The notes beneath the pieces are model-generated. The model ran no database searches. It was not told where the DNA came from and worked only from the letters and a program-made list of their open reading frames with translations. Shown here in pieces: positions 31,314 to 38,086 of a DNA stretch of 64,000 bases. The translations under genes were made by a program, and so were the position numbers. The first letter of the stretch is position 1, and each line of letters opens with the position of its first letter. Source of the DNA: Gammaproteobacteria bacterium (GTDB lineage: Bacteria; Pseudomonadota; Gammaproteobacteria; Pseudomonadales; Cellvibrionaceae); NCBI GenBank assembly GCA_004172865.1, contig SEBV01000001.1:248001-312000 (forward strand), written 5' to 3'.

Positions 31314-32681
31314 TTATTCGATATCGGGCGTAGTGTTTGAAACTGTTCCATCGGTCGGTTTGCGCGGACGGCGACGGCGTGGACGACTAGTGGCGTTTTG
31401 CTTGCCTAGGTCTTTTACCATTTGCTCGCGATTTTCATCGCTAGCACTTTGGAAGCTGGTCCACCAACTTCCCAAGCCATTTAATTTCTCGCCAGCATCT
31501 TCGCGCATGAGCAAAAAGTCGTAAGCGGCACGGAAGCGCGGGTGATCGAGCAAACGCAAAGCACGCATTCCCTGACGACCGGGTAAACGCGATTGCAGAT
31601 CCCAAATTTCGCGCATGGGAATCAAGAAGCGTTTTGGAATTGAGGTGCGAGCCAGCTGTTGACTGATTACGCGTTGGCAAGCTTCGAGATAAGCGGCTTG
31701 TGGCGGCATCTTCTCGGCGAGACGCGCTTGTTCTTGCTGTAGCGCTGGCCAGAGCAGCGCGGCATAGATAAACGCAGGCGTTACCGTTTTTTCAGCGCGA
31801 ATGCGTTTGTCGGTGTTAATCATGGAGCGCTCAATAAGCGCTGCGCCCAAGGTGTCGCCAGATTTAATGGCGGCATCCGCACCGGGGAAAAGTTGTTTCA
31901 GCAAATCGTATTCGCTCAGCAGATGAAAGGTCGCTGTCGCTGATCCACCTAAAAATAACTTGAGTACTTCTTCAAACAGACGGGCTTCAGAGATATTGCC
32001 AAGTAAAACGCTTAACTCGCGAATCGGTTGAGCAGTATTAGGTTCGATCTTGAATCCCAATTTAGCCGCAAAGCGTACGGCGCGCAGCATGCGCACAGGA
32101 TCTTCTTTGTAACGCGTTGCAGGGTCGCCGATAATGCGCAAGGTGCGATTTTTAATGTCTTCCAGACCGTTACAGTAGTCATGCACAGAGAAGTCGCGGA
32201 TGGTGTAGTAGAGCGCGTTGACGGTGAAATCACGACGAGCAGCATCGGTTTCGATAGTACCGTAGACGTTATCCCGCAACAACATGCCTTCGTCAGTTTT
32301 GGATTTCGCGTGGGCAACATCTTCGTGATGGCCGCGAAAGGTAGTCACTTCAAATATTTCACGGCCAATACGCACGTGAACAATCTGGAAGCGGCGACCG
32401 ATAATGCGCGCGCTGCGGAAGATGCGTTTTACTTCCTCTGGCTTGGCATCGGTTGCTATATCGAAATCTTTGGGATGGTTACCGAGTAGCAAATCCCGTA
32501 CACCGCCGCCGACCAGATAGGCCTTAAAACCTGCTTCTTCGATTTGCTTAATAATCTTGATAGCTGCGGGGCTTATATTTTTGCGCGAAATATTGTGCTG
32601 ATCGCGAGGTATCACCACCGGGCCGCTTGTAGCAGAGGCAGCTTGGCGCGAGGAGATAAAGTTGAACAGACGTTTCAGCAT
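31314..32681 (-). CDS. pcnB: Poly(A) polymerase I
   Basis: 455 aa; AYLVGGGVRDLLLGNHPKDFDIATDAKPEEVKRIF; C-terminal basic tail. Confidence 0.94.
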   Translation of the reverse strand: MLKRLFNFISSRQAASATSGPVVIPRDQHNISRKNISPAAIKIIKQIEEAGFKAYLVGGGVRDLLLGNHPKDFDIATDAKPEEVKRIFRSARIIGRRFQIVHVRIGREIFEVTTFRGHHEDVAHAKSKTDEGMLLRDNVYGTIETDAARRDFTVNALYYTIRDFSVHDYCNGLEDIKNRTLRIIGDPATRYKEDPVRMLRAVRFAAKLGFKIEPNTAQPIRELSVLLGNISEARLFEEVLKLFLGGSATATFHLLSEYDLLKQLFPGADAAIKSGDTLGAALIERSMINTDKRIRAEKTVTPAFIYAALLWPALQQEQARLAEKMPPQAAYLEACQRVISQQLARTSIPKRFLIPMREIWDLQSRLPGRQGMRALRLLDHPRFRAAYDFLLMREDAGEKLNGLGSWWTSFQSASDENREQMVKDLGKQNATSRPRRRRPRKPTDGTVSNTTPDIE

Positions 32682-32893
32682 AGTTTTTTTCGTGCAGATT
32701 GGATGACGACGTAGACGAAATTTGATTATGGTACAAATTAGTGGGCGCGAGTGTAGCAGATGCAGTCTGACAGAGGAAACTCAAGTGCCTATTGGCGTCT
32801 CTGAACTTATTTATAGGTGGCTGGTCTTTACAATAACAATTGAATTGAACGTATTGATTAGGTGGATAGGAAATCGGGTAGAGAGGAAAGCAA

Positions 32894-32920
32894 AACGGGA
32901 AAGCTTTTGGCTTTCCCGTT
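32894..32920 (-). terminator. Terminator hairpin of the CrcZ-like RNA
   Basis: 11-bp stem AACGGGAAAGC/GCTTTCCCGTT, weak T-rich tail (TTTTGCTTT, first TT in stem). Confidence 0.65.
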
Positions 32921-33100
32921 GGGAGGGTAGCACAACAGAGGTGCTCATTAAGGCAATTAAATGGGGTGCTTCCGTGCCCATCTCTAACTCTCTTGCTATC
33001 CCATCCTCTGCCTAATTGGTATTCCGCTTTATTTTAGTATCTTATTGCTCTTGTCTTCTAGCGCTGGTCTTGCTCAATCCACGTATCGTTATTTTTATGT

Positions 33101-33203
33101 TTCTGCTTATTATTGTTTTTTGTTGTTATTAAGTTTTCAGTTTCTTATTGTTTCTTGTTGTTATTAGTAAATTTCAGTTTCTTATTATTTCTTGTTGTTA
33201 TTA
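33101..33203 (-). repeat. Three tandem A-rich ~35-37 nt units (TAATAACAACAAGAAAYAATAAGAAACTGAA)
   Basis: 33136-33166 and 33173-33203 differ at one position; a third diverged copy at 33101-33131. Confidence 0.85.
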
Positions 33204-33252
33204 TTTTTACGCTTTTTTAATTATTATTTATTGTTTTTAGTGCTCGACATAG

Positions 33253-33268
33253 AGCACTTCCTATGCCA
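33253..33268 (-). promoter_or_regulatory. Sigma54 (-24/-12) promoter
   Basis: Minus strand TGGCATAGGAAGTGCT: GG-N10-GC, against consensus TGGCACG-N4-TTGCW. Confidence 0.8.
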
Positions 33269-33363
33269 ATAAAAAATTTTCCTTATGAATCAATCGGTTG
33301 ATGTTTTTGGGTGTGTTTTTATAACTTTTTGTTATTTCTAAGGGTTACAAAATTATGGAACTT

Positions 33364-33428
33364 TGTTACCGAGGGTTGTGTCCGGTAACACTTTTGCGTG
33401 CGGTAACAGTTTCGTAGATGGGGGTAAC
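33364..33428. promoter_or_regulatory. Candidate CbrB upstream activating sequences
   Basis: TGTTAC-N15-GTAACA inverted repeat (33364-33390) plus GTAACA at 33403 and GTAAC at 33424, about 120-185 bp upstream of the predicted start. Confidence 0.65.
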
Positions 33429-33483
33429 GGAGTGGCATCTAGATCAACTTTCTGATCAAAAAACATGCAAAAGCGTAACGCCA

Positions 33484-33574: not shown

Positions 33575-34996
33575 CTATTTGGCGAGACTTGAGGCGCTAT
33601 TTTTCGTGCGTGGAATTCCCAGACGCTGACGACGTTCCCATAAACACTTACGACTTACACCCAGTTTACGAGCCAATTCTGTCTCGCTCATAGAGTCCTG
33701 ATGTTCAATCACAAAGCGTTGGAAGTAGTCTTCCAATGACAAATCTTCTGAAGCTTCCTTGGTTGGCCGCTGAATAGGATTGCCAGCAAGAGTTCGGGTC
33801 TGTCCGAAAATCATATCGCCAGTTTCGAGCGTATTTTGAGATGGAGAATCTGATTCAATCGATAACAACAATGAACTGATCTCGTTACTATCTTCACAAA
33901 GAATGACAGCTCTCTGCATGGCGTTTTCGAGTTCGCGTACATTGCCTGGCCAAGCATAGGCCATGATGGCATCAACAGCGTCTGCAGAAAGTTTGAGTTG
34001 AGGTTTGCCGAACTGGGTGCAGTAACGTTGTAAAAGCGATTCAGCGATATTGATGATGTCGCGCCCGCGCTCGCGTAGGGGCGGCAGTGTCAACTGAACA
34101 ACGTTGATGCGGAAATATAAGTCTTCGCGGAATTTGCCTTCTTTAGCCAGTTTGCGCAGGTCGCGGTGGGTTGCGGCGACCAAGCGTACATCCACCTTGC
34201 GCGATTCAACTGAACCCAGCGGACGCACTTCACCTTCCTGCAAAACGCGCAGCAAGCGAGCTTGAGCTTCAAGCGGCAATTCGCCGATTTCATCTAAAAA
34301 CAGAGTTCCGCCATCTGCAGCAGCAACCAGGCCTTCACGGTTGCTTGCGGCACCGGTGAATGCGCCTTTTTCGTGGCCAAAGAGTTCAGACTCGATCAGG
34401 GTTTCTGGAATGGCGGCGCAGTTTACCGAGATCATCAGGTGGTTATTGCGTTGGCTTTCTTCGTGCAGTGCACGAGCAACTAATTCTTTACCGGTACCTG
34501 TTTCACCGTGGATCAACACAGTGGCGGCGGTAGGAGCAACTTTGTGGATGCGGTTATAAAGATCCTGCATTACATCGCTGCTGCCAATCATCCCGGCAAT
34601 GGCTTTGCTAGCAGTAAGACCTTGAGTGGCAACTTTATTGGCGGCTTTGGCTTTGCCGATAACACGTTTAACCGCGTTGACCATTTCATCGTGGTCGAAG
34701 GGTTTGGCAACGTAATCGACAGCGCCCATACGCATTGAATCGACCGCTGAACGCAGGCTTGCGTAGCTGGTCATAATCAGTACCGGCGTTTCGCCAGCAA
34801 GTTTAATGAGGTCTGTGCCTGGTGCACCCGGCAGTCGGAGGTCACTGATAATGAGGTCGAAATCCTTGAGGCTAAATTTGGATGTAGCTTCCTTTACCGA
34901 TGGAGCTTCACTCACTTCATACTGGTTGCGCTCTAACAGCTTGCGCAATGCATTGCGAATGATGGTTTCATCTTCAACAATAAGAATCTTACTCAT
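33575..34996 (-). CDS. cbrB: Sigma54-dependent response regulator CbrB
   Basis: 473 aa; receiver, AAA+ with [15 protein letters not shown] and KGAFTGA, C-terminal Fis-type HTH; downstream of cbrA. Confidence 0.9.
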
Positions 34997-35113: not shown

Positions 35114-38086
35114 TTAAATATCGACTAAAGAATCAACATGGCGCGGCAATTTGACGATGAATTGTGCTCCGCGATTCCGCTGTGTGTCCACCGGGCTGAC
35201 GATATCCAATAGGCCGCCATGATCTTCCACAATACTATAGACCATTGCCAGTCCTAAGCCTGTACCTTCGCCGGGTTCCTTGGTGGTAAAAAAGGGCTCC
35301 AGAATTCGATCCTGAATGTCGGGCGGAATACCGCTGCCTTCATCCGTAACCGTGATATCGATGGAGTATTCATCTTCATTGCTGGCGAGTAGCACGCGGC
35401 CATTTTCGGGGCTGGCATCGCGCGCGTTGGAGAGCAGGTTAATGAACACCTGAATCATACGCTGAGTATCGCCAGCTACAATGGCATTTTTAGGAATTTC
35501 GTTAATAAATTGTACTTGCTGCTTATCTTTTTGGAGGGATAACAGGCTAATCGCCTCATGAGCACAGTCGCGCAAAATAACGGCCTGGAATTCGCTCTTG
35601 GCGGTGTGGCCGGTGTGCGAGAAACCCACTAAAGATTGCACGATTCGCGTAACGCGATCTGTCTGGCTGAGAATTTGTTCGGCAGTTTCCAGCACTTCAG
35701 GATTGTCCGAATCGTAACGCAAATTCTGCGCTAGACAGGCGATACCCGTAATCGGGTTGCCAATTTCGTGAGCCACACCTGCGGCCAATCGCCCAACCGA
35801 TGCCAAGCGCTCACTGTGTACCAGCTCCTGCTCCAATAATTGGGTTTCAGTTACGTCTTCCAGCATCATTACCTGATCGTAAACGCCTTCGGTAATTGGC
35901 CCCTCAATGGTTGCTTTATGCAAGCTGATCCAATGGGGATGGCCTTCGAGTTCGATTTCGCGACGGTAGTAATGCATTTCACGGCTCTTGCTAAAGTCCG
36001 TAAGCAGGGTTCGCCAGGGTTCGGCGATATCTTCCAAATAAGAACCGGTCACTTGTTCGCTCGGTGTGTGAGTCAGCCCGGCCATGGCGTGGTTCCACAT
36101 GAGGATTTCCGTATCTGGTCCCAATGAGCACACCGCCATAGGTAATTCTTGCAAGGTTTTGCGATGATAAAGGCGCAAGTTGTTCAGCTCTGCGGCCATA
36201 CCCGTAAGGTGGTTTTGATACTGTGCGAGGCGATTTTCGATCAGATTAATATCCAGCGTTTCGCGCACGTCGGCCACTTTGTAGGGAAGATGGCTATCCA
36301 TAATTTCACTGGCAACGTGAATACCCATCAATGCAGACAAGTTGCCTTCAAGTTGGTCGCGCAGGCGGCGCAGAGCGTAAGGGCGACGCTCATTATTGCT
36401 TAGGTCCAATTGCTTAAGTGCATGATCGACTTCACGGCTGGCGGTTACTTTGCCGAGCGGTTTGGCAAGGCGATCTTTAAATTCAGCAGCAGAGTGTACA
36501 TCCAGCGCTTGGCGAACAGGATGACTAAGTTCATCGGCAGCACATAAATCCGCGCTGTAATGTTCTTCTTCCGATTGCTCCGTTATCAGCGACACAGCGA
36601 TAAAAATCGCCGTGTTCAAGCCCAGTGAAAAGAGCGTAATGCTATTCCAATATTCATTCCCGACCGGAATGTAAAACTCGGAAAAGGGAATGTGCAGAAC
36701 TTTCATGCCGGTGATGATTGGTAGCAAGAGTCCAAAAAACCAGATCACTGTACCAACTGACAATCCGGCGATCATACCGCGGCGATTTCCCGGGCTCCAA
36801 AACACAATCGCAAAAGTACCGGGCAAGAATTGCAGGGTTTCGATAAAAGCGGCGAACGCCAAATCGGTAAGGCTGTAGCGATTGTTGAGTACCCAATAAA
36901 ACAGATAGCCGCCAAAGAAAATCGCGGCAATCAAAATTCTGCGCAACCACAAGAGTTGGCGATAAAGATCATTGCGGGCGGCGAGTCGCAAACTTGGCAG
37001 CAGCCAATGGTTCATCACCATGGTCGCCAGCGCCAGGGTTATAATAATCATCGCGCCGGTTGCTGCGGATAATCCACCGATAAATGCAAAAATGGTTAAC
37101 GCGGGCGAGTTAAACAGAATCGGTACGCCCAAGGTGAAATATTGCGGATCAAGAGGAACCGCGAGTTCCGAGCCGGCCCACAAAATCGGGAATATGGGCA
37201 GCGCCATAAACAGCAAGAACAGAGGGAAGGCCCAAGTAACCGTGCGCGAGTTGCGCATCAGGGGATTTTCCGCCAAGCCCAAATGGAAAATGTGTGGCAT
37301 GGTCACAGCGGTAGCGACGAATACTAGAAGCAGTGTATGGGATGATCCATCCTGAATTGGTGTATGCAGCAACGCGAGATTTTCGGGGTGATCCGCAAGC
37401 CATTCATTGAGACCGTCGATACCGTGAAATACGCCAAACACCGATACCATTCCTACCGCAAACATCGCGCAGACTTTAAGCAGGCTTTCAAATGCCATGG
37501 CGGTAATAAGGCCGCGATGCTGATCGCGATTGGAGCCAAATAAAATCGTAAAAAGCGCGAGTATGGCGCAGTAGCAAAGCGCCATTACATCTTTAAAGGT
37601 GAGACCGTTATCAGCCACCGTGAGCGATGGATTACCGCTTCCGCTGACCACGAGAATGTGCATGGTGTCGGCAATCGCCTGAATCTGCAGCGCCATTAAC
37701 GGCAAAATCCCCAGTAGCATGCAGAGTGTAGTAAGCGCACCTACGGCATTACTGTGGTAGCGAAACACCAACAAATCCGCCAGTGAATGTACCTGATGGC
37801 GCCGCGCTAACTCGGCGAGTGGGGCAAGCGCAACGGGCGCAAATAAAAATAAGGCGCCAGTGCCAAGATAGTAAGCGAGCGCGCCGTAACCGAATTGGAA
37901 GGCGAGGTCGACCACACCGTAAAACGCCCAGGCGCTGGCAAAAATTCCGAGGGAAAAAATATAGGTAACGGGATGGGTGGTAATTCGTTCGGGAATCCAC
38001 CCGCGTTCGGTGATATAGGCGATCCCGAAAAGTAACAAGAGGTAGCTGATGCCGATCAGGGCAACCTGGCTGAAATCAAAAGTCAT
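35114..38086 (-). CDS. cbrA: Sensor histidine kinase CbrA (SSS-type transporter domain, PAS, HisKA, HATPase)
   Basis: 990 aa; ~12 TM symporter-like N-terminus, RLAAGVAHEIGNPITGI H-box, GEGTGLGLAMVYSIVEDHGG. Confidence 0.9.
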   Translation of the reverse strand: MTFDFSQVALIGISYLLLLFGIAYITERGWIPERITTHPVTYIFSLGIFASAWAFYGVVDLAFQFGYGALAYYLGTGALFLFAPVALAPLAELARRHQVHSLADLLVFRYHSNAVGALTTLCMLLGILPLMALQIQAIADTMHILVVSGSGNPSLTVADNGLTFKDVMALCYCAILALFTILFGSNRDQHRGLITAMAFESLLKVCAMFAVGMVSVFGVFHGIDGLNEWLADHPENLALLHTPIQDGSSHTLLLVFVATAVTMPHIFHLGLAENPLMRNSRTVTWAFPLFLLFMALPIFPILWAGSELAVPLDPQYFTLGVPILFNSPALTIFAFIGGLSAATGAMIIITLALATMVMNHWLLPSLRLAARNDLYRQLLWLRRILIAAIFFGGYLFYWVLNNRYSLTDLAFAAFIETLQFLPGTFAIVFWSPGNRRGMIAGLSVGTVIWFFGLLLPIITGMKVLHIPFSEFYIPVGNEYWNSITLFSLGLNTAIFIAVSLITEQSEEEHYSADLCAADELSHPVRQALDVHSAAEFKDRLAKPLGKVTASREVDHALKQLDLSNNERRPYALRRLRDQLEGNLSALMGIHVASEIMDSHLPYKVADVRETLDINLIENRLAQYQNHLTGMAAELNNLRLYHRKTLQELPMAVCSLGPDTEILMWNHAMAGLTHTPSEQVTGSYLEDIAEPWRTLLTDFSKSREMHYYRREIELEGHPHWISLHKATIEGPITEGVYDQVMMLEDVTETQLLEQELVHSERLASVGRLAAGVAHEIGNPITGIACLAQNLRYDSDNPEVLETAEQILSQTDRVTRIVQSLVGFSHTGHTAKSEFQAVILRDCAHEAISLLSLQKDKQQVQFINEIPKNAIVAGDTQRMIQVFINLLSNARDASPENGRVLLASNEDEYSIDITVTDEGSGIPPDIQDRILEPFFTTKEPGEGTGLGLAMVYSIVEDHGGLLDIVSPVDTQRNRGAQFIVKLPRHVDSLVDI

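Follow-up and report, generated by a model that had tools for sequence, protein, structure and literature searches.

The cluster of GTAAC/GTTAC half-sites lying between cbrB and pcnB in a Cellvibrio relative very probably serves as the upstream activating sequence through which CbrB controls a single-copy CrcZ-like small RNA, a reading which, judged from sequence, would encompass CbrB binding, IHF bending, sigma54 activation and Hfq/Crc titration. Pseudomonas is known to have this layout; in the present case it occurs in a Cellvibrio relative and includes two extra binding repeats. The window analysed is a stretch of 64,000 nt corresponding to positions 248,001 to 312,000 of contig SEBV01000001.1 (GCA_004172865.1), forward strand. 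All three neighbouring genes are encoded on the minus strand: cbrB (33575..34996), whose product, the presumed binder, comprises a receiver, a sigma54 AAA+ domain and a C-terminal Fis-type HTH; cbrA (35114..38086), coding for the partner sensor with a long membrane-type N-terminal part and histidine kinase domains; and the conserved downstream neighbour pcnB (31314..32681; TIGR01942, 547 bits, above the NCBIfam subfamily cut-off). A CbrB enhancer had been proposed at this location in the sequence-only reading, and the adjoining cbrB gene, the near-invariance of the CbrB HTH recognition region among 108 relatives, a core of the P. putida type and subsite positions fixed across the order all argue for it.

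On the plus strand of the window, TGTTAC (33364-33369) is separated by N15 from GTAACA (33385-33390), with GTAACA following 18 bp on (33403-33408) and GTAACG a further 21 bp on (33424-33429). Every letter and spacing previously reported for these four half-sites is therefore present, and their position, given as about 120-185 bp upstream of the start, is measured as ∼122-187 bp with the start at ∼33241-33242. The inventory was nevertheless incomplete, as a third core subsite, R2 (33343-33348), had been overlooked. On the minus strand, the strand of the sRNA, and with the T of the -24 box (33268) as reference point, five subsites are predicted in the order F3-F2-F1-R1-R2 toward the promoter: the extra distal subsites F3 (CGTTAC, 33424..33429, -161) and F2 (TGTTAC, 33403..33408, -140), 21 bp apart, then F1 (TGTTAC, 33385..33390, -122), R1 (GTAACA, 33364..33369, -101) and R2 (GTAACC, 33343..33348, -80; GGTTAC on the plus strand). 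The extra half-sites are thus promoter-distal, while the core F1-R1-R2 reads TGTTAC-N15-GTAACA-N15-GTAACC and the positions of F1 and R1 recur in relatives. The likeness to Pseudomonas CbrB sites noted earlier holds for this core, which fits the P. putida pattern, but not for the isolated palindrome as the unit. The N15 palindrome was dropped as a functional unit since relatives carry F-R-R. In addition, R2 is invariant as TGTAACC in 7/7 Cellvibrio-like loci, and in P. putida crcZ substitution of R2 (GTAACg) had the strongest effect among the three subsites (PMC6296734); the unit is therefore F1-R1-R2 rather than a lone palindrome. Alignment of the Cellvibrio-like loci indicates that the subsites are kept while the spacers diverge. 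Just downstream of R2 is another block, GAAATAACAAAA (33327-33338, minus strand, approximately -70 to -59 from the -24 box), which hardly varies among seven Cellvibrio-like loci but is not conserved order-wide. Situated ahead of the predicted start of the RNA, it could represent one more R subsite in degenerate form (ATAACA at -67) or a different kind of element.

A chance pile-up of a common hexamer would be compatible with the frequency of GTAACA itself, which occurs 24 times in the window against 27 expected and so shows no enrichment, and the evidence therefore resides in clustering. The cbrB-pcnB gap of 894 bp has five GTTAC/GTAAC words inside a 90-bp span, whereas 5000 dinucleotide shuffles never gave more than three, and the array is the sole cluster of at least four half-sites per 90 bp among the 135 half-sites of the 64 kb. 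Similarly, TGTTAC-N10-20-GTAACA occurs twice in 64 kb with 0.01 expected. Clustering above all 5000 shuffles, together with conservation of the subsite positions across the order, which already contradicts the chance reading, renders it extremely improbable.

The elements expected downstream of such an enhancer are predicted in the appropriate order. An IHF consensus, AATCAATCGGTTG (WATCAANNNNTTR, zero mismatches; 33288..33300, plus strand), is located between the enhancer and a sigma54 -24/-12 promoter, TGGCATAGGAAGTGCT (33253..33268, minus strand), which is predicted from sequence and precedes a predicted CrcZ-like small RNA of ∼360 nt (32885..33242, minus strand) ending in a predicted intrinsic terminator (32894..32920, minus strand). 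Two cues suggest a start near 33241: the position of the -12 element, and a relative, L056, in which the Rfam CrcZ match begins 27 nt from the -24 box. The predicted sRNA lies near cbrB, between cbrB and pcnB, behind the predicted CbrB/sigma54 promoter, and contains 22 AANAANAA (CA) motifs, a number which none of 2000 shuffles reaches (mean 4.1, maximum 16). An Rfam scan of the window returned zero families at gathering threshold, and against the CrcZ model (RF01675) the predicted sRNA scores 19.8 bits, far below the gathering score of 95, so that RNA homology derives from synteny, promoter and CA motifs only. By these three properties the predicted RNA is CrcZ-like, while lying outside the Rfam CrcZ family as modelled.

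The genome also encodes Hfq (hfq), RpoN (rpoN), IHF-alpha (himA) and a Crc-like protein; the solved chains nearest to the latter, 4jg3 and 4f1r (3e-75), bear the name catabolite repression control protein. The sites with their positions and conservation, the gene context and the presence of RpoN, IHF-alpha, Hfq and Crc genes are computed results, while CbrB binding, DNA bending by IHF, activation, the action of the RNA and the part played by F2/F3 are inferred, as follows. CbrA would activate CbrB, the product of the gene just upstream, which would bind F1, R1 and R2 on one DNA face. IHF at 33288-33300 would bend the DNA such that the CbrB assembly contacts sigma54-RNA polymerase at 33268-33253, which would then transcribe the RNA rich in AANAANAA motifs. 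This RNA would titrate Hfq (with Crc), relieving carbon catabolite repression, and F2/F3 would probably raise local CbrB occupancy.

Conservation of this arrangement is observed across the order. A CbrA relative was detected in 145/195 sampled genomes (E <= 1e-100), with pcnB located downstream in 92 of 100 CbrA-positive relatives for which 5 kb of downstream sequence was taken per genome. Promoters were chosen by -24/-12 score and the presence of at least four CA motifs, irrespective of half-sites, yielding 104 promoters from 83 other genomes of the order in 29 families. Not one of the 104 has fewer than two half-sites in the interval from -170 to -60. An R-type site is found at -83 to -77 in 78 promoters (20 families), an F-type site at -126 to -120 in 64 (19 families) and an R-type site at -105 to -99 in 47 (14 families), family counts being given because relatives are not independent. 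Control counts taken far upstream are biased low, as some stretches end at cbrB; the contrast with neighbouring positions is equally clear. The distance from R2 to the -24 box in the window, 80 bp, is the order-wide mode, and an IHF consensus with at most one mismatch occurs at -32, its location in the window as well, in 59/113 promoters. In L056, where Rfam CrcZ matches with 309 bits, the subsites lie at F-124/R-102/R-82, as compared with F-122/R-101/R-80 in the window.

Other features of these loci were also observed. Two to four tandem CrcZ-like units, each consisting of an array, a sigma54 promoter and a CA-rich stretch, occur downstream of cbrB in 17/83 genomes (L054, L055, L057, L059, L063, L064, L070, L081, L086, L089 with four units, L094, L097, L111, L118, L119, L125 and L140). 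Three members of the order with cbrB (L116, L122 and L130) have a downstream region without pcnB, array or CA-rich RNA. Between cbrB and CrcZ in L056 (1593-1653), a match to Rfam P36 (RF01679, 'Pseudomonas sRNA P36') covers CbrB subsites and a terminator-like hairpin, which suggests that the P36 model describes a terminator plus enhancer and not a separate sRNA.

With one genome taken per genus, subsites cluster near -80, -90, -101, -112, -122, -133 and -143 from the -24 box, the strongest periodicity being 10.5-11 bp and R2 at -80 being the most constant position. The core F1-R1-R2 falls on this lattice, on one helical face, with spacings of 21 and 21 bp. The extra half-sites had been described as phased, which holds for F3 with respect to F2, and the core is also phased, but fails for F2/F3 with respect to the core, as F2 (-140) and F3 (-161) lie approximately a third of a turn off core phase, the step from F2 to F1 being 18 bp. 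This offset would be in keeping with an enhancer consisting of F1-R1-R2 only, in which F2/F3 serve another function, for example binding of a second DNA-binding protein or action as a CbrB-bound tuning, non-activating element. Confinement of the pair largely to the family, both positions being filled in 1/97 promoters outside it, also favours separate function; within the same family, Microbulbifer-type loci often have, close to -137, a site that may face either way. F2 on its own is likewise kept in Cellvibrio-like loci and rare beyond the family. Against this, F2 is a perfect TGTTAC like F1, F3 deviates at the first base only, and the F3-F2 spacing is 21 bp in 6/7 Cellvibrio-like loci, equal to the F1-R1 spacing in the window. 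We regard an enhancer limited to the core as rather unlikely, although it is the alternative to be taken most seriously. By sequence comparison, F2/F3 is a conserved, lineage-specific distal extension, one that in the preferred reading would belong to the CbrB enhancer.

The specificity of the arrangement was investigated using the pattern GTAAC-N14-18-GTAAC-N70-82-TGGCAY-N6-TGCW in 41 whole genomes, 21 with and 20 without a CbrA match. The pattern was present in 20/21 CbrA-positive genomes, by coordinates solely in the cbrB-pcnB gap, and in 1/20 genomes scored as CbrA-less (G086), where it is flanked by pcnB and by a homolog of cbrB (48% identity). Further targets, for which a genome scan had been advised, did not emerge, pattern searches of the bacterium's own genome revealing no convincing second CbrB target. 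Zero matches were obtained in a search for F-R plus sigma54, a negative result that is weak because the distance range left out the window's own R1. A search for R2-like sites plus sigma54 returned the window site and four others, all rejected: one lone half-site ahead of an acyltransferase gene (L150), one match inside an ORF (L148) and two similar matches 600 bp apart which look like repeats (L151, L152). Other TGTTAC-N11-19-GTAACA matches in this genome were without a convincing sigma54 promoter, including one that resembles a terminator hairpin (L003) and one beside polA (L005), neither of which was retained as a target. At the latter locus, eight GTAAC/GTTAC half-sites in two clusters (L005, 1314-1544) lie between polA and a metal-binding-protein-like ORF, possibly as the box of another regulator, Zur-like as a guess. 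These polA-side half-sites indicate that the GTAACA word is not unique to CbrB, and such a dense group in the same genome, lacking a convincing sigma54 promoter, lends something to the proposal that the half-sites of the array bind another regulator with a GTAACA-like box. Binding by such a regulator is nonetheless very unlikely, as in the 41 genomes the spaced array with its -24/-12 promoter is found solely next to cbrB and, beyond the order, these half-sites again occur in the vicinity of cbrB. Both observations favour CbrB as the cognate protein.

Published accounts restrict CbrAB to Pseudomonadaceae or pseudomonads (PMC8871633, PMC6296734). Among 232 genomes sampled from the class, 23 from other orders gave CbrA matches, and cbrB was seen in 19/20 loci fetched from these. 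In those 19 cbrB loci, pcnB was absent from the fetched stretch and an array with a CA-rich RNA was not found. Three genomes of other gammaproteobacterial orders (L159, L169 and L170), in which the CbrB recognition region is also close, have tandem GTTAC-N5-GTAAC pairs near cbrB with a sigma54-like promoter, preceding a DUF294/CBS-type gene (assigned by Pfam in two and by eye from the translation in the third); in L170, a gene for a small membrane protein and a symporter-like gene come next. These arrays resemble that of the window in half-site, downstream sigma54-like promoter and nearby cbrB, but differ in their N5 paired palindromes, shorter distance to the -24 box and protein-gene target, with no crcZ seen nearby. 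Occurrence of the same half-sites near cbrB in three genomes outside the order suggests, as a hypothesis, that the preference for this half-site arose before crcZ did. Combined, the observations allow a scenario to which we give somewhat less than an even chance: CbrB recognition of GTTAC/GTAAC would predate crcZ, driving a DUF294/CBS-type operon from tandem palindromes in other orders, whereas in Pseudomonadales an F-R-R array beside cbrB would drive an Hfq-titrating RNA, to which the Cellvibrio lineage would have added out-of-phase F3-F2, giving a distinct enhancer of five subsites whose dose response would differ.

CbrA, CbrB, the enhancer geometry and the CrcZ-like RNA recur in most sampled families of the order, Cellvibrio-type bacteria included, and CbrB-CrcZ-Hfq/Crc control of carbon use is therefore likely to be much wider. 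Analysis of 104 promoters in 83 genomes reveals the 10.5-11 bp lattice of subsites counted from the -24 box, which is beyond the reach of single-species work. Literature searches for CbrB with Cellvibrio found no paper in the library consulted, and nothing relevant came from combining other genera of the order with CrcZ or CbrA.

In P. putida, mutagenesis, EMSA and footprinting established the CbrB consensus TGTTAC-N12-14-GTAACA-N15-19-GTAACA (PMC8871633), with IHF and sigma54 both required (PMC6296734, PMC8871633). The cooperative oligomer binding suggested in the sequence-only reading is a hypothesis for the array; P. putida CbrB was a monomer in solution, and binding that accumulates over non-palindromic subsites is what the authors of that work propose (PMC6296734). 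The core in the window fits this consensus except for the first spacer, N15, which is 1 bp beyond the range, and the last base of R2, and the sixth base of R2 is not A in either case, being g in P. putida crcZ and C in the window. The crcZ promoters of P. putida and P. aeruginosa share with the window the F-R-R order, spacings of ∼21 bp, R2 ∼80 bp before the -24 box, the IHF site, the -24/-12 promoter and the gene order cbrB-crcZ-pcnB. Unlike these promoters, the window has two extra distal F subsites, its genome lies outside Pseudomonadaceae, and the body of its RNA is too diverged for the Rfam CrcZ model. The P. putida crcY promoter (F1, R1, R2 and R') is like the window in carrying a subsite beyond the three-subsite core, but the addition there is a single R', substitution of which was without effect (PMC6296734), whereas the additions in the window are two distal F sites that are conserved in the lineage.
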